From: a virus
Strand: one strand, 5' to 3'
Length of the DNA stretch: 27,427 nucleotides
IMG/VR virus record: IMGVR_UViG_3300032053_000417
Span: 1 to 27,427 of that record
In this document: piece after piece, positions 12,085 to 27,404 of the stretch
How the letters are laid out: the number at the start of each line of letters is the position of its first letter
Position numbering within the stretch: position 1 is the first letter of the stretch
Position numbers and translations under genes: made by a program
Notes under the pieces: model-generated
Seen by the model: only the letters and a program-made list of their open reading frames with translations
What the model was told of the DNA's origin: nothing
Databases searched by the model: none

Positions 12085-13035
12085 TTATTTTATAGCCATT
12101 TTAGCGACTTTTGGGTTTAACATTATTTTACTAAATTTAGGCTTATTACCACTCAATAATTCTTTGATAATATAATATCTTAAATCATCAGTAAAAGATT
12201 TACATTCAGTAGTTATCGTAGACAATCTTTGAATAATCCCATCAGAAATAGGACCCGTAGACGCTTTGTTTATAGAATAATTAATAATTCTAGTAGCAAC
12301 TACACTTGAGATATCTGCTCTAAACTCGTCATCTTCTCCAATCATATCCTTAAGAACACCAAATACATATCCTTCATCTTTAGTTAAAATATCTTCAGGA
12401 GAAATTATCTTATCTAATTTATTATTGATAAACATAGTGAACATAGAACTAAAATCGTCTCCAACTGAACCCTCACCAATCATTTGAATCATCGGTAATT
12501 CATCTTCAAACTTTTGAATAGAACTAATAGAGTTAAAGAAAGTAGTTACACTTCTTGGATTAACTTTTTGAGTTACTAATTCAGGATTCATCAACATGAA
12601 ATTAATACATCTACCATCAATGTTTACTGCTTCTGCCCAACGAGCCCATACATTTACATCATACTTTAACTCAACACTAATAAATCTAGTTTGTTGTGCA
12701 ACATCTAAGCTAGTTACATTGTAATCACCATTGTCTGGATTAGTAGTCAATACTACGTGCCAGTTCTTAGGTAATTTCCAAGAAACATATTCTTGTCTAT
12801 CACAAATTTCCATTACTGCTTGCATAAAGCGGTGATCCGCACGAGTAAAATCATCTAGAATAAGTACACCACCTTCACCTTTACCTTGAATCCACTCAGG
12901 AGCAGCATGTGACATTCTTTTATCTACAACTTTATACCCTTTTTGTCCTGCTAACTCAATTTCTTGTTCAGTTATCCAGGATACTTTTCCTTCAGCATTC
13001 TTAATTTTGTATTCTTTAATAGGGAAACCAATTAA
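12085..13035 (-). CDS. MoxR-type AAA+ ATPase, exon 2
   Basis: Second exon of a split gene; the spliced protein is 389 aa (73 + 316). It carries Walker B (GGVLILDDFTRAD, spliced D134/D135), sensor 1 (VLTTNPDN, N near 172-175) and an arginine after QQT that suits the Arg finger, followed by the helical lid domain. MoxR-type ATPases remodel or activate partner proteins, usually with a VWA protein, and here the HExxH/VWA protein is the immediate upstream gene. The open frame can be extended to an ATG at 13038-13036, but that ATG lies in the intron's last bases, and without exon 1 the protein would lack Walker A. Joining GAT (14092) to TTA (13035) gives ELGD-LIGFP in frame. Confidence 0.9.
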   Translation of the reverse strand, partial: LIGFPIKEYKIKNAEGKVSWITEQEIELAGQKGYKVVDKRMSHAAPEWIQGKGEGGVLILDDFTRADHRFMQAVMEICDRQEYVSWKLPKNWHVVLTTNPDNGDYNVTSLDVAQQTRFISVELKYDVNVWARWAEAVNIDGRCINFMLMNPELVTQKVNPRSVTTFFNSISSIQKFEDELPMIQMIGEGSVGDDFSSMFTMFINNKLDKIISPEDILTKDEGYVFGVLKDMIGEDDEFRADISSVVATRIINYSINKASTGPISDGIIQRLSTITTECKSFTDDLRYYIIKELLSGNKPKFSKIMLNPKVAKMAIK

Positions 13036-13301
13036 CATTATTTGTTATCTCTAAGGCTCTTTATCCTTAGATTCTGCATCTTTATATATACATGCAGTTC
13101 AGACTATATCATCACATTTCTATTATAGCTATTCTTGGTAGAATATCAAAATGTGTTCTGCGCTCGTGGATAATTTACCTTCATCACCACATGGTAAGGT
13201 TACTATATCTAGTCGTTGCTCCTTACTTATATTTCTATAAGTCTTGGGTCAGTATTGTCCATTTCAGGATGTTCACTGAGTTCACAGAATTTAAAGGGGA
13301 C
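13036..13301 (-). ncRNA. Group I intron catalytic core and guide sequence
   Basis: Downstream of the endonuclease stop the minus strand begins with the internal guide GTCCCCT (13301-13295), complementary to exon 1 AGGGGAT with the obligatory terminal U-G. Then come typical core elements: AATACTGACCCAAG (Q-like), CAACGACTAGA (R-like) and GATATAGTCTGA (S-like). GACTA pairs with TAGTC to form P7. A hairpin TATTC/GAATA near 13121-13145 suits P8. CTGCAT/ATGCAG and CTAAGG/CCTTAG (P9-type hairpins) precede the end. The intron ends in G (13036). The R/S elements resemble those of T4-type (IA-like) introns. Confidence 0.9.
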
Positions 13302-14051
13302 CTAATTGGTTTTTAATTTTATTTCAATATTAAAATTTGTTTTTCCAGATACTATCATCTTAGAGAAAAATTCCCATGCATTTTTTACATTATTAAAAGC
13401 AAATTCACCTTCAGAATAAAAATTAAAATGTTTACCCAAATAATTTGGGTTTACATCGAATTTTTTTATAGAAGTTTTGCTATTAGAATATCTTAATCTT
13501 ATTCCGTCTTTACTTATACCTTTAATATAACCTCCAGTTAATCTTTGTACGTCTTTCTTAGTAATATTTAATTTTTCAGAAGCTTCTTCTTTGTCTTTAA
13601 AAGACTTTAAATAATTTCCAAAATAATCATATACTTCGACTGTACAAAAATCAAATTTAGTTTTATACTTTCCAGCCGCTCTACCATCAATAATTGATTT
13701 TGATAATTTTTGCTTACTATATATTGATAAAGTTTTAAGAACAGGATCTAATTGTAAATTAAAATTAGGTTTTAATGTATCTATGTAATATTTTTCTCTT
13801 AAAATTCTAGATTCTGGTGAACAAAATTCTAATATTTCGTATTTAAAACTGTTTATACCATATTTATTAAAAGCTTTTTGCATAAAATCATTTGAATGTT
13901 TGTTATTCAAAAGTTTTTGCCTATGTTCTAATAATCTATCGTATAAAGTTTTAGAACTACCTACATATGTTCTAGAATTACATGTTATCATGTATATTCC
14001 AGATTTTTGTCTTAGTTCTTTTGCGCTCAATTGAAGAATTGATGTTTTCAT
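13302..14051 (-). CDS. GIY-YIG homing endonuclease in the group I intron, 249 aa
   Basis: Start ATG 14051; an in-frame TTG at 14057 is a weaker alternative. GIY-YIG nuclease domain: G18-I-Y20, Y29-V-G31, catalytic Arg in YDRLLEHR (R39), metal-binding Glu in LREKYYIDTLKP (E86). The C-terminal half is a NUMOD-type DNA-binding region, with VEVYDYFGNYLKSF (~138-151), a helix-turn-helix-like EEASEKLNITKKDVQRL and GISKDGIRLRY. It would cut intron-less ATPase alleles and start homing by repair. The TAG stop (13304-13302) abuts the guide sequence, and its last three codons plus stop form the P10 guide. Codon use is more A/T-rich than its neighbours. Confidence 0.92.
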   Translation of the reverse strand: MKTSILQLSAKELRQKSGIYMITCNSRTYVGSSKTLYDRLLEHRQKLLNNKHSNDFMQKAFNKYGINSFKYEILEFCSPESRILREKYYIDTLKPNFNLQLDPVLKTLSIYSKQKLSKSIIDGRAAGKYKTKFDFCTVEVYDYFGNYLKSFKDKEEASEKLNITKKDVQRLTGGYIKGISKDGIRLRYSNSKTSIKKFDVNPNYLGKHFNFYSEGEFAFNNVKNAWEFFSKMIVSGKTNFNIEIKLKTN

Positions 14052-14091
14052 ATACAAATATAATTAAATATTTGCTAAAAACTAAATATTA

Positions 14092-14310
14092 ATCCCCTAA
14101 TTCTTCTAATTGAGATAGATTTAGTTTTACAACATTTAATCCTAACTCTTCCCCTACTTGCAATATTGCAGAGGTTTTGCCTAGTCCAGCATCTCCTGCT
14201 ATATTTACAGTAACTGGTACTTTACCTTGTGCTTGAATAAATTGATTATTGCCTACAATATGCTTAACAAAATCTTTTAATTCATCCACATTTAATTTTA
14301 CTTGACTCAT
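14092..14310 (-). CDS. MoxR-type AAA+ ATPase, exon 1
   Basis: 73 codons starting at ATG 14310 with an A/T-rich leader, 14 bases from the stop of the VWA gene. Residues 39-46 (GDAGLGKT) are the Walker A P-loop. LNVVKLNLSQLEELGD (58-73) is the conserved strand and loop before the intron. Unspliced RNA would terminate immediately at TAA (14091-14089), giving a 73-residue fragment without Walker B. The protein continues in exon 2 (13035-12085). The upstream partner gene encodes a VWA/HExxH protein, matching the usual MoxR-VWA pairing. Confidence 0.9.
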
Positions 14311-14324
14311 ATTTATTTAATTTT

Positions 14325-15530
14325 TTAAAGTTCTAATTTAATTACTTGACCTGGAAGACTTTCATTTAGGTTTGATCTTTCTGACAATACCCATAGTATT
14401 TTTCCTGAAGGTTTCATAGATGTACTACATTCACCATCAGTAAAATATATTAAACTTGTAAATTGTCGATTTTCCATAAAATACTCCAACACAGGATCAA
14501 ACTCTGTTCCCCCTCTACCTGATACTTCTAATTCAAATTTACCTTTGTAGTCTTTAACACTAGTAATTTGAGTATCACATTGCACTATAGTAATATCTAC
14601 TCCAGCTTTATAGATATGATGTATCTCATTCATGAATTCTTTAAGCTCACTATCACTTACAGATCCCGAAGTATCTATAGCTAATAGCATCTTTTGCTTC
14701 ATCTTAATTTTAAGACCAGGATTACCATCATATCTTTTATTTTCCTTTCTTCTAATTTTCTTAGTGAAAATCTTAGTAGAAACTCCTGTAAATCTTCTGA
14801 TGTATCCCTTCCAATTAAATTTAGGAGGCACTAATGCATCTAATTTAATCAAAGCGTCCATTTCTCCTGGAACATGTCCTTGCTTCTTAAGAGTTTGCTC
14901 TTTAGCATTAGAAAGTAATCTTTGCGTTTGTTTTTCTATAAGCTTTTGTTCAGCTTCTGGTAAATTTTCAAACTCTTCCCAAGTACTATGATCAGGCAAA
15001 CCGTCACCATCTCCTTCACCATCCATTGGGTCACATAGTTTATCAAAGGCATCACTGCCACTAGTACCGTTCTTATCCTTCTCTTCTTTAGCTTCTTTGA
15101 GCATATCGTAATAATAACGACAGCCTGCTCTAGTATCAAGATTTAATTCTGGATAATTGTCAATATTAATTCCTCCTTTAGGTAACCATTCAGGGATAAT
15201 ATATTGATTAATTTCCATATCCATAGCTATATTAGCTAGTTTCCTGTCAGCAAATTTAAAAAAGATACCAAGGTGCCCAAATGCAATATGCAAGAGCTCA
15301 TGCTTAAGTAAACCCAATCTGTGATCTTCAGATAACTCTTCCCAAAAAGTAGGATTGATAACCAATTGATAATTGATTCCTTGTTTACTAACGCCAGCCG
15401 TGGGTACTTTAGCGTTCCATAATTTATTCAATAAAATGAGAAAGAACCCGTAATAGGGCTCAGAAAGCATAAGATTCTTTGAAGTTCGTGCTAAACTATC
15501 AGCTTTATTTTGTGTATTCATATTACTCAT
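14325..15530 (-). CDS. HExxH metallopeptidase-like / VWA domain protein (DUF2201-type), 401 aa
   Basis: The N-terminal domain has HELLHIAFGH (H77, E78, H81, H86), a zincin-type HExxH motif. A Gly/Asp-rich linker (~155-185) and helical segment follow. The C-terminal VWA domain has a complete metal-ion-dependent adhesion site: DTSGS (286-290), the Thr in GRGGTEFD (~338-345) and TDGE (364-367). This matches the VWA-like metallopeptidase family that pairs with MoxR ATPases. In such systems the VWA protein recruits the substrate and the ATPase remodels it. In a phage the target is unknown. Start ATG 15530 overlaps the previous stop by 8 bases; an ATG three codons on is possible. Confidence 0.88.
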   Translation of the reverse strand: MSNMNTQNKADSLARTSKNLMLSEPYYGFFLILLNKLWNAKVPTAGVSKQGINYQLVINPTFWEELSEDHRLGLLKHELLHIAFGHLGIFFKFADRKLANIAMDMEINQYIIPEWLPKGGINIDNYPELNLDTRAGCRYYYDMLKEAKEEKDKNGTSGSDAFDKLCDPMDGEGDGDGLPDHSTWEEFENLPEAEQKLIEKQTQRLLSNAKEQTLKKQGHVPGEMDALIKLDALVPPKFNWKGYIRRFTGVSTKIFTKKIRRKENKRYDGNPGLKIKMKQKMLLAIDTSGSVSDSELKEFMNEIHHIYKAGVDITIVQCDTQITSVKDYKGKFELEVSGRGGTEFDPVLEYFMENRQFTSLIYFTDGECSTSMKPSGKILWVLSERSNLNESLPGQVIKLEL

Positions 15531-15930
15531 ATTTTTTTAAATTAATACTAACTTCTATTGGAGGATATCCTAAATCAATAAAATTTTGTTCTGTTTGTTT
15601 TGAAAATAATTCCATAAAAAGTTCCTTAGATTGTTTACTAGTATTGAATTCTACCATTTTTGTTATACATTCTTGAGAAGACAGAATTGAAAGAAAAGAA
15701 GGTTTACTTGCCATTTGCAGAGTTTCACACAATATTTTAAATCCTTTAGGATATAAATTTGACCAAATAGCACTATCACATTTACCATATTTATAAAGAA
15801 TAATTAATTCTCCTAAATATTTTTTTTGATTTATTTGTTTTAAAATCTCAAAACCTACTATAGCATTTTCTTTATCTTCAGATTGAAGCATTTTTAAAAT
15901 AGCTTTTACTTCTGTTTTATCTATTTTCAC
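15523..15930 (-). CDS. Hypothetical helical protein, 135 aa
   Basis: Starts at GTG 15930, which overlaps the upstream TAG as TAGTG, so translation is probably reinitiated from the preceding gene. The predicted protein is almost all helix (KAILKMLQSEDKENAIVGFEIL and similar), reminiscent of a short HEAT-type repeat protein, but no family is recognised. It precedes and overlaps the VWA gene by 8 bases and may act with the MoxR/VWA pair. Confidence 0.65.
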   Translation of the reverse strand: MKIDKTEVKAILKMLQSEDKENAIVGFEILKQINQKKYLGELIILYKYGKCDSAIWSNLYPKGFKILCETLQMASKPSFLSILSSQECITKMVEFNTSKQSKELFMELFSKQTEQNFIDLGYPPIEVSINLKKYE

Positions 15931-16121
15931 TATTCTTCAGTTTTTAATCCTTCTTCATCTAAATACTCTACTTCCATTAAGGCACTATTTAAATCCATCA
16001 TAGTCATGTATGCACAATTATCAGTATCAACAGTATCCATATCATAATTAGCTTCTAACAGCTCTATAGCTTCATTAACTAAAGCTTGTACTTTTTCTCT
16101 AATTTGTTCTACTCTTTCCAT
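15930..16121 (-). CDS. Hypothetical small acidic protein, 63 aa
   Basis: ATG 16121 overlaps the upstream TGA (ATGA), and its TAG overlaps the next GTG (TAGTG). It is an acidic, helical protein with an N-terminal amphipathic helix (MERVEQIREKVQALVNEAIE). No domain is recognised. The tight coupling on both sides supports it as a real gene. Confidence 0.6.
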   Translation of the reverse strand: MERVEQIREKVQALVNEAIELLEANYDMDTVDTDNCAYMTMMDLNSALMEVEYLDEEGLKTEE

Positions 16122-16462
16122 CAGTCTTCTATTTTAAGTGTTTTAATCATCCATTCTGTGGGTGTATTAATATTATCTACCCATTCTTTAGCACTAGGAA
16201 TATAATTATTACAGTCCTCTTTTACATGCTGTTCTCCTATGTATCTTACATATACATCTTTTCCATCACAGTTAGTAATAGTCATACCAAATCTTTTCTC
16301 ACATTCAAATATACCTTCACTATGATGTCTAAACATTCTATGTTTACTGTGCCCTATCCAGGCCTTAGTTTCATCAAACCATTTATGAATATCTATATAA
16401 TCTATTGCTGAACCACCAAACTTTCTAGCTGATGATATAGCATGTTGCCAAGGATGTGCCAC
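16121..16462 (-). CDS. DUF6915-like protein, 113 aa
   Basis: The pattern MAHPWQHAISSARKFGG at the start, then HKWFDETKAWIGHSKHRM, RHHSEGIFECEKRFG, TITNCDGKDV and YIGEQHVKED corresponds to a small conserved bacterial and phage family that I recall as DUF6915. It is rich in conserved His, Trp and acidic residues, but no biochemical function is established. The start is GTG 16462, overlapping the upstream TAG as TAGTG. The upstream gene resembles DUF6878, a frequent neighbour in my recollection. The conserved His residues could bind metal; that is inference. Confidence 0.75.
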   Translation of the reverse strand: MAHPWQHAISSARKFGGSAIDYIDIHKWFDETKAWIGHSKHRMFRHHSEGIFECEKRFGMTITNCDGKDVYVRYIGEQHVKEDCNNYIPSAKEWVDNINTPTEWMIKTLKIED

Positions 16463-16860
16463 TATTCTAAAGTTTTATTAATTAAATCTCCTTCATGTTC
16501 ATAGTCTTCAATATGTTGTACATAAATTTTATTAAATATTTTATATTCTCCTGAAGGTACTTTTATACATAAATAACCGTGGCCACCTTCATCATTCCAC
16601 CAGTCTTCTATATCTCCTAGTATTTTGTCTTGTGCAAAATCTTTTAAGATAGAATCCATGCCAGTATTTAATTTGTCTAATTGATTTTCACTCCAAACAT
16701 TTATATTCATTATATCTTCCCAAGTCATATTTGAATTTTTTGAATATACAATTCCTTGAATTGCGCCACTATCCCCACAACCTTCATAATATACATTAAG
16801 GGCAGTAATATCAAGATCAGCCAACTGTAATAGAAGGCTTACCATTTTATTTTCATCCAT
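16462..16860 (-). CDS. DUF6878-like protein, 132 aa
   Basis: The motif YYEGCGDSGAIQGI (~24-37), followed later by WWNDEGGHGYLCI (~87-99), a beta-strand pair and HIEDYEHEGD near the end, matches the pattern I know as DUF6878 (Y-x-G-x-GDSG-x-I, then W-x-N-x-x-G-x-x-G). The GDSG resembles a serine-protease motif, but nothing else supports protease activity. Start ATG 16860, one base after the primase stop. It forms a TAGTG junction with the DUF6915-like gene. Confidence 0.7.
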   Translation of the reverse strand: MDENKMVSLLLQLADLDITALNVYYEGCGDSGAIQGIVYSKNSNMTWEDIMNINVWSENQLDKLNTGMDSILKDFAQDKILGDIEDWWNDEGGHGYLCIKVPSGEYKIFNKIYVQHIEDYEHEGDLINKTLE

Positions 16861-16861
16861 T

Positions 16862-17863
16862 TTATAAAGTTTTAATTTTTAATTTGATAATATCCACTGC
16901 TTCTGTAGTACCTAGGGCCTTTACCAAGTCGCTGAAATCAGTAACTTTAGGCATTTCAGGTACAAAGAAGTAGGGAATATTATACTTTTCAGTGAAGCTC
17001 TTAGATAATTTCTTACCAGCTTCATCATTGTCAAATAGACAAATTACTTTCTTAAATCTAGATTTATATTCATCCATTACAGAATCCTTCATCATAACAC
17101 TTTCTGACTGTAAGCCAATAGCAGCTATACCTAAACAATCGTGAATACTCATAACGTCCTTTAAGGATTTAGTTATAATTAGTAAGTCACCTGATTCAGG
17201 AAGTTGCATGTATCCTTGATGCACAGAATAATCTGCATTGTTAATCCATTTTTTAATCTTAATCTCTAAAGGTTGATAGATTTTATAACTAACTCTATCG
17301 TCTTTTATCTCTACATAAGCATAAGCTAACTCACTAGTTTTAACAGCAGTATCATTATAAAAAACATAATTGATAGCATGCACATTAAACTTTTCTAAAG
17401 TAGCTTTCTTAATGCCGAAGGAAGACCAATATTGCTGATCTCTCTTACTCCAAGGCCTAGTTTTAATTCCTAACTTAACCTTATCCTTATGTACTATTCT
17501 AGTATATTGTACAACTTGCTTAGAAGCATCTATATTAAAACTAGACAATCCTAAATCATACGCTACTTTTTTAAGTGCTTCTGGATAACTCAAATTAAAG
17601 AGTCTTATTACTAATACCAAAAAATCACCACAATCTTTAGTAGCAAAATCATAGAACATTAAGATATTTCTGTCGATTTTATGGAAATACAATGCAAAAG
17701 AAGGAATATTATCTTCTCGTAACGGGCTATGAAATATACCCAAATGTTTAATATCTTCCCCTAAATAAAAAGAATAAATTTCTTCTTGGGTTACATACTT
17801 AAGAATATCTTCTCTTGTAATCTGACTATTAAATACTATTGAATTTAGATTTATTTCTTTCAT
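16862..17863 (-). CDS. DnaG-like primase with CHC2-like N-terminus and TOPRIM domain, 333 aa
   Basis: The N-terminus follows the fold pattern of DnaG zinc-binding domains (SPLREDNIPSFALYFHK then DFATKDCGDFLVLVIRLF) but lacks the zinc ligands. The TOPRIM region runs LLIITKSLKDVMSI (~230-243), GLQSESVM, then VICLFDNDEAGKK (the DxD pair) and VTDFSDLVKALG. The usual glutamate of the first TOPRIM motif appears replaced in TKSLKD, a variation I associate with phage primases of this type. It would make RNA primers for the phage replisome with the DnaB-type helicase. Start ATG 17863 lies directly at the U-tract of the upstream terminator, so expression depends on read-through or a hidden promoter. 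Confidence 0.8.
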   Translation of the reverse strand: MKEINLNSIVFNSQITREDILKYVTQEEIYSFYLGEDIKHLGIFHSPLREDNIPSFALYFHKIDRNILMFYDFATKDCGDFLVLVIRLFNLSYPEALKKVAYDLGLSSFNIDASKQVVQYTRIVHKDKVKLGIKTRPWSKRDQQYWSSFGIKKATLEKFNVHAINYVFYNDTAVKTSELAYAYVEIKDDRVSYKIYQPLEIKIKKWINNADYSVHQGYMQLPESGDLLIITKSLKDVMSIHDCLGIAAIGLQSESVMMKDSVMDEYKSRFKKVICLFDNDEAGKKLSKSFTEKYNIPYFFVPEMPKVTDFSDLVKALGTTEAVDIIKLKIKTL

Positions 17864-26428: not shown

Positions 26429-26662
26429 TTACCAACTTGTGGTATTAGTTATACAATAGTGTGTACCTACATATGCACTCATCCAATCATCAGGTGTTAA
26501 TACCCAAGTCTTAAAGTTACCACTACAGTCATTCTTAATATCTACTGAATAATCAGCAGCATTATCTGACATTATCTCACCACAATTACATGGTGTTACT
26601 TCTTTCTTCTCACATGACATTGCCATCAATGCAACTGCCATAATCATCATTACTTTTTTCAT
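26429..26662 (-). CDS. Small lipoprotein, 77 aa
   Basis: Signal peptide MKKVMMIMAVALMAMSC with Cys17 as the predicted lipidation site for signal peptidase II. The mature protein begins CEKKEVTPCNCG and has five further Cys residues that could form disulphides. A charged stretch directly after the lipid Cys is a feature of surface-exposed lipoproteins in Bacteroidota, though this one is half Lys and not a clean export signal. Phage lipoproteins often block superinfection at the receptor (for example T5 Llp), and that is a plausible role here by analogy only. It is 2 bases upstream of a membrane microprotein gene. Confidence 0.75.
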   Translation of the reverse strand: MKKVMMIMAVALMAMSCEKKEVTPCNCGEIMSDNAADYSVDIKNDCSGNFKTWVLTPDDWMSAYVGTHYCITNTTSW

Positions 26663-26671
26663 CTTACTTTT

Positions 26672-26790
26672 TTAAATTGTTTTTACAGCCCGAACATTGC
26701 ATAAGTAGTACTTGCTGTAGTTGCTCTGGTTGCCATACTTGAAGTCCTGTAACCACGCGTAGTTACTACTGGACTCGGTGGAACTCCAAT
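26672..26790 (-). other. Candidate DGR variable region at the 3' end of the DUF1566-like gene
   Basis: Between the codons for YYWSS and NVRAV most codons end in C or G (AAC, TAC, AGC, GAC, AAG and similar), in an otherwise A/T-ending genome. That is the signature of A-targeted mutagenesis of AAC/AAY-type codons. No template repeat or reverse transcriptase gene is visible in this window, so it is unconfirmed. Confidence 0.45.
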
Positions 26791-27061
26791 AGTAGTCATT
26801 TGCAAAACCGCCAACCACATCTTTATTTTCATACATTAATAATAACTCTACTCTAGTAGGTAATCTCCAACCTTCACCTAATGAAGCACAAGCTCCCTTT
26901 GCTTCTTCCCAAGTCATTTTTCCTAATTCTTTAGGATTTACTAAAAAGCCAAGGGTTCCACATATAGCAACAGGTTCCTTTTCTTTTTCTGCTTTCATTA
27001 AATCAGCTTTCAATAAAGCTAACTCATCTTCCAGCACTTTAATTCTTTCTAGTTCTTTCAT
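26672..27061 (-). CDS. DUF1566-like (C-type-lectin-fold) protein, candidate DGR target, 129 aa
   Basis: The start is ATG 27061, one base after the upstream stop; the open frame extends to a TTG at 27085 that would overlap the upstream gene. N-terminal coiled coil (ELERIKVLEDELALLKADL), then a DUF1566-type domain: MTWEEAKGACASLGEGWRLPT (GWRLPT is the family hallmark), then YYWSSTESSSNYAW and NVRAV at the end. DUF1566/FGE-like domains are common variable proteins of diversity-generating retroelements. No signal peptide is present. The last ~110 bases are much richer in G+C and in NNC codons than the rest of the gene. It may bind a receptor or virion partner. Confidence 0.8.
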   Translation of the reverse strand: MKELERIKVLEDELALLKADLMKAEKEKEPVAICGTLGFLVNPKELGKMTWEEAKGACASLGEGWRLPTRVELLLMYENKDVVGGFANDYYWSSTESSSNYAWLQDFKYGNQSNYSKYYLCNVRAVKTI

Positions 27062-27062
27062 G

Positions 27063-27404
27063 TTATTTCTTTTTAAATTGTTCAAACCATTTAGTAATCC
27101 CAGATAGGCTAAATACTACTCTTGAATTATTTTCTTTATGAAAACTATATAAAATAGAGATAACTTCTTCCTCACTATACATTTTTTTAGCTTGCCATTT
27201 AGCACCTTCATAAAAAGCAATTTCTGTTTGTTGTTTTTCTGGTTCATTCAAATATATTCCACCATGAACATATCTTTCAGCAGCTTCTTCAAGTGTTTCA
27301 TAATCCTTGAGCTTTTCAAGGTCTCTTTTCCATTCAGCTTTTAATTTCATTGCTATAACCCACATGATAAACATGCCTATAAATAATCCTAATCCAAAGT
27401 CCAT
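27063..27404 (-). CDS. Small membrane-anchored hypothetical protein, 113 aa
   Basis: ATG 27404; the 23 bases beyond it to the window edge hold no gene signal. N-terminal hydrophobic span (residues 3-20, GLGLFIGMFIMWVIAMKL), then a long hydrophilic helix (KAEWKRDLEKLKDYETLEEA) and a C-terminal segment AKWQAKKMYSEEEVISILYS. I recall the MYSEEEV-type tail in other small proteins of Bacteroidota phages. Likely an inner-membrane anchored protein with a cytoplasmic helical domain. It is coupled by a one-base gap to the DUF1566-like gene. Confidence 0.7.
   Translation of the reverse strand: MDFGLGLFIGMFIMWVIAMKLKAEWKRDLEKLKDYETLEEAAERYVHGGIYLNEPEKQQTEIAFYEGAKWQAKKMYSEEEVISILYSFHKENNSRVVFSLSGITKWFEQFKKK

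Follow-up and report, generated by a model that had tools for sequence, protein, structure and literature searches.

The 3' end of a short gene in the phage DNA analysed here reads as an orphan variable region (VR) of a diversity-generating retroelement (DGR), probably (probability about 0.72) diversified in trans by the chromosomal DGR of a Bacteroidota host. The window, a stretch of 27,427 bp, makes up the entire virus record IMGVR_UViG_3300032053_000417 and is, to judge from its sequence, a fragment of a crAss-like phage genome. In the proposed mechanism, an A-rich template RNA would be reverse-transcribed by the DGR reverse transcriptase (RT) with Avd, misincorporating at template adenines (mutagenic retrohoming), and the cDNA would replace the 116-bp 3' end of the phage gene, guided by a conserved frame and a GC-rich 3' end. 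The RT, Avd and template (TR) would most likely reside on the chromosome of the Bacteroidota host and act in trans on infecting phage DNA, the phage supplying only the target gene, which encodes a protein of predicted C-type-lectin fold. The relevant features of the window are as follows.

26672-27061, minus strand: variable-protein gene, 129 aa from ATG 27061 or 137 aa from TTG 27085.
26685-26800, minus strand: DGR variable region, an NNC-rich hypervariable 3' segment of 116 bp.
26801-27061, minus strand: conserved gene body, about 90% identical in nucleotides to the relatives L003 and L004 and not hypervariable.
26429-26662, minus strand: small lipoprotein-like gene with a lipobox-like LMAMSC, directly downstream of the variable gene.
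27063-27404, minus strand: upstream small gene, with relatives in several VR-bearing phage records.
23864-25873, minus strand: PolA-type DNA polymerase, a marker of the crAss-like lineage.

The VR is built on a fixed nucleotide frame, GGAGTTCCACCGAG...GCGTGG...CAG...TTC...GGC...CAG...AAG...GTTCGGGCTGT, and the frame GGAGT..YACBGAG..GCGTGG is kept at the nucleotide level in relatives. NNC codons account for 47% of its 38 codons, compared with 8.7% of the 8,684 codons in the window genes and 3.4% in the body of the same gene, while its GC content is 0.457 against 0.32, which bears out the enrichment in NNC codons and G+C proposed in the first-pass annotation. Only eight of 7,389 sliding windows of 38 codons reach the NNC level of the VR, all of them inside the variable gene. 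Hypervariation is limited to the VR, to codon positions 1 and 2 and to NNC codons, as in a DGR target. The same annotation had delimited the region as 26672-26790; the hypervariable 3' segment is real, and its limits are better set at 26685-26800 on the minus strand. Near the VR of the window, no inverted or direct repeats of at least 14 bp and no obvious BPP-1-like cruciform were detected, and the IMH-like tail of the bacterial elements (CGGGCTTTTTA) is not conserved downstream of it.

The open reading frame was called at 26672-27085 on the minus strand with a TTG start, and since the relatives L003 and L004 begin at ATG in the alignment, ATG 27061 is likely the true start. The variable protein matches the Pfam family Lcl_C (PF07603, E 8.7e-12), and its AlphaFold model (pLDDT 89.7) combines a long N-terminal helix, predicted as a coiled-coil, with a C-type-lectin-type (Lcl_C) domain whose closest PDB structure is the C-terminal domain of Legionella Lcl (8q4e, E 7e-8). 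The variable residues lie in the C-terminal segment of this predicted fold, as is characteristic of DGR targets. The protein would be a displayed or binding protein with diversified ligand specificity. The neighbouring lipoprotein suggests, rather than shows, that it is displayed at the host surface, and the tail-fibre-like targets of other phages suggest a role in receptor binding.

Relatives of the window's polymerase occur at 72-98% identity across dozens of IMG/VR contigs; the identity to gut crAss-like phages is about 40%. The downstream lipoprotein-like gene, possibly a partner of the variable protein, is 92% identical at the amino acid level in L003 and also occurs in L008, and relatives of the upstream gene are found in the VR-bearing phage records L003, L004, L112, L121, L280 and L283. 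L008 (60.9 kb) is about 92-97% identical to the window across most of 12.8-26.7 kb, and the variable gene is missing from it between the downstream lipoprotein gene and the upstream gene; the target is therefore accessory cargo. Two further blocks of the window have no counterpart in L008. At 13036-14086, an insertion of ~1.05 kb with a GIY-YIG/NUMOD1 homing endonuclease, absent from the near-identical L008, splits an ATPase-like gene into parts at 12085-13038 and 14089-14310; it is probably a group I intron, with no Rfam match at the gathering threshold. At 15462-16869, the window contains ~1.4 kb of small genes that are missing from the corresponding place in L008, where the flanks are 93-97% identical. 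The window as a whole gave no Rfam match and no tRNA.

Comparison with related phages separates the VR from the rest of the gene. In L003 and L004 the VR bins are only 50-77% identical to the window, set against a gene body at about 90%, in which differences from relatives are sparse or spread over the codon. Among paralogous copies in L105 and L106, two phage contigs carrying T4-like baseplate genes, VR differences per site amount to 0.35, 0.37 and 0.08 at codon positions 1, 2 and 3, and 35 of the 36 VR columns with at least three bases include A. The corresponding genes L105_c2 and L106_c1, from two phage contigs of one sample, are identical over 196/196 bp of body and in the tail and differ at 24 VR positions, 23 of them at template adenines. 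These copies stand in tandem arrays of short Lcl_C variable genes (~344-bp period), five at L105:5073-6778 and three at L106:2997-4009, with a different VR in each copy. The reading of L105 (G045) as the full genome of an RT-less phage was rejected, as it is an 88-kb piece that carries T4-like baseplate genes and lacks end repeats.

Using a DNA pattern of the conserved VR frame, 21 viral and 67 bacterial loci were collected. The bacterial loci include 24 A-rich TRs, mostly from Bacteroidota, with an RT 0.16-1.04 kb away in 18 of the 24. The locus L136 from a Chitinophagaceae MAG is a complete element on a bacterial chromosome, comprising a signal-peptide Lcl_C target, bAvd (PF22296, E 1e-21), a TR and a DGR RT (RVT_1), and its TR matches the phage VRs of one of two template classes (class 2). 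The neighbours of L137, L163 and L184 are ordinary chromosomal genes. Four bacterial loci (L163, L171, L175 and L134) contain A-rich template-like sequences with no RT in the fetched locus and are possibly solitary templates.

Phage VRs follow these bacterial templates closely outside adenines. Compared with the single TR of L136, the 18 distinct class-2 phage VRs are substituted at 332 of 774 A positions (43%) and 56 of 1170 non-A positions (4.8%), or at 45% and 7.8%, respectively, once the columns that the search pattern fixes are set aside, and pooled class-1 phage VRs compared with the best TR over the core at 329 of 733 A positions (45%) and 28 of 763 non-A positions (4%); the cells are not independent, given the relatedness among some of the phages, and each best TR was selected from about 28, so the counts describe a pattern, not exact probabilities. 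Several class-1 phage VRs have none of 45 non-A positions changed, such as L103 (core A 21/43, non-A 0/45). On these alignments, phage VRs differ from bacterial chromosomal TRs almost only at template adenines. This adenine-directed divergence of related phage VRs, together with the VR signature, supports the DGR target that the first-pass annotation had put forward. Rapid evolution is known for lectin-fold receptor-binding domains, and the window could in principle hold a lectin domain evolving fast by ordinary positive selection or recombination with no DGR at work, but this is scarcely credible given the conserved third codon positions and adenine-containing columns of the L105/L106 VRs and the near-exact nucleotide match of non-A positions to bacterial TRs, synonymous sites included.

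Replacement of the VR inside a conserved gene is seen in L004, whose gene body and 3' tail resemble those of the window and L003 and whose VR agrees with class 2 at 10 of the 11 sites that are diagnostic of template class; the class-1 sites are matched at 10/11 in L003, 11/11 in L005 and L006, and 8/11 in the window. The VR alone appears to have been exchanged for that of the other template class with the gene body kept, which is what template-directed overwriting by the DGR of a different host would produce. L004 is the only clean swap of VR class used; L103 versus L121, considered as a second one, was dropped as the C-terminal half of the gene body differs too. The gene bodies that end in class-2 VRs are of three or more unrelated kinds, some of them tail-fibre-like, and the carriers of these VRs include crAss-like relatives of the window (L282/L283, with 71-72% identity for two genes) as well as phages with no detectable shared protein. 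Tail-fibre-like or other non-crAss phage proteins end in class-2-type VRs in L290, L295, L107, L101, L284 and L108, with no RT in these records, and in the 117-kb record of L265, also with no RT, a class-1-like VR (L265:3503) terminates a protein that contains a long linker rich in Ser and Thr.

The template type of the window VR is common to L113 (TTCCACCGAG), and its 116-bp template was deduced as TTCCACCGAGAACAATAATAACAACGCGTGGAAACAGAAC. The nearest bacterial TR, in L211, is not the cognate one, with core substitutions at 17 of 44 A positions and 5 of 44 non-A positions, and at 19 of 52 and 8 of 64 over the full length (Fisher P 0.002). A search with the deduced template through the 24 TR/VR-bearing bacterial genomes and about 800 further Bacteroidota genomes (about 395 from the class of G066, about 393 from its order and 6 from its family) yielded no cognate TR; the best match, at 89% identity, was rejected as not cognate. 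In the proposed mechanism, the window's own host would carry the cognate DGR, and the transfer would take place during infection.

The 5-8 non-A differences of the window VR from the best available TR would also suit a fossil, that is, a target gene or VR that was acquired from the DGR locus of a bacterium or from the DGR of an ancestral phage and is no longer being diversified, and identical VRs recur across assemblies in the contig groups L107/L110/L114, L101/L109 and L104/L115. Phage VRs overall, however, have 43-45% of A positions changed with a non-A drift of just 4-5%, the L105_c2/L106_c1 pair has accumulated its 24 VR changes with none in 196 bp of body, and L004 shows replacement of the VR alone, which together make an ended diversification quite improbable.

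As to the origin of the machinery, the first-pass annotation had located the TR and RT outside the window, and this holds: the VR itself is the sole match in the record, with no second copy and no TR, and RT queries find no RT. Neither component of a complete phage-encoded DGR, an RT and a TR in the same replicon, is thus present in the window record, itself an incomplete genome, while the excess of non-synonymous variation is present, so that the DGR assignment stands. Of 41 related records, 40 lack RVT_1, among them polymerase-selected crAss-like ones, several of 83-92 kb; the one match is a remote record. RVT_1 is likewise absent from 21 of 24 records in another phage set, in which L102/L119 are RT-positive. 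L008 has no RT either. The class-2 phage records contain no RT, and the TR query matches one place per record, the VR itself. Over the 20 distinct class-2 records (550 kb), a randomly placed RT would escape notice with a probability of about 5e-4 if the genomes measure 100 kb and 0.04 if they measure 200 kb. The VR-bearing records are fragments (longest crAss-like 74 kb), so that an RT far from the VR could lie in the missing part. As positive controls, self-contained phage DGRs were detected in L102/L119, L254, L260, L263, L275, L277 and L281.

These controls, which carry related VRs, also lend something to the idea that RT and TR are encoded by the phage itself, in a region of the genome beyond the sequenced fragment, and act on the target in cis from a distance, as do the 27-kb size of the window record, the known cases of remote VRs within one genome and the complete DGRs of other crAss-like phages (PMC7290462, PMC12386605). 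It is nevertheless unlikely, in view of the RT-less crAss-like relatives, L008 and the roughly 550 kb of distinct class-2 records with neither RT nor TR. Furthermore, L004 on the one side and L003 and the window on the other have near-identical gene bodies with different VR classes, which would be unexpected of a vertically inherited template. The first-pass annotation had left two sources for the machinery, another part of the phage genome or supply in trans; of these, the evidence favours supply in trans by the host.

Extending diversification in trans by the host DGR beyond the window, it seems rather probable that convergent evolution has turned gene 3' ends into landing sites for host DGRs in Bacteroidota phages that are unrelated to one another (crAss-like, T4-like and others whose targets resemble tail fibres). 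These phages would use the mutagenic RT of the host in trans, and the VR class would record the last host template met. If so, the phage would gain targeted hypermutation at no cost, one host DGR would serve many genomes, and the template signature of a VR would be a sequence-based marker of phage-host contact. DGR surveys find an RT and then look nearby, a design that would overlook orphan phage VRs dependent on the machinery of a host. The largest DGR survey states that remote targets are beyond its detection (PMC8144416).

DGRs in general, those of crAss-like phages and VRs remote from the RT of the same genome are already known; the new element would be a phage target diversified by a DGR on the host chromosome, of which no report was found in the searched literature (preprints and most subscription journals were outside its scope). 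The mtd DGR of Bordetella phage BPP-1 (PMC3240598) is similar in its adenine-directed VR at the 3' end of a C-type-lectin-fold gene and in its NNC/AAC codon design, whereas the window VR is orphaned: neither RT nor Avd nor TR was detected in the phage, matching machinery was found in bacterial chromosomes, and the target gene lies beside replication genes instead of tail genes. The Lcl_C family (PF07603) and the Legionella Lcl C-terminal domain (8q4e) resemble the window protein in sequence family and predicted fold; Legionella Lcl is a bacterial adhesin, in contrast to the 129-aa phage protein with its coiled-coil helix. DGR-diversified C-type lectin proteins are also known in Crassvirales, namely in crAssphage LMMB (PMC7290462) and in epsilon (PMC11054128) and zeta (PMC12386605) crAss-like phages. 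Those systems have an RT, usually a TR, and tail-fibre targets, while the window has no RT found and a short protein near the polymerase region; epsilon crAss-like phages with a broken RT were interpreted as not using retrohoming (PMC11054128). A VR with no adjacent RT is shared with the nanoarchaeal DUSEL4 system (PMC4372165), whose partial DGRs have been interpreted either as fossils or as being diversified from a distance, and with the distal second VRs of gut prophages (PMC12629997). In both of these systems RT and VR reside in one genome, whereas for the window the RT and TR most likely belong to the host and the VR to the phage.
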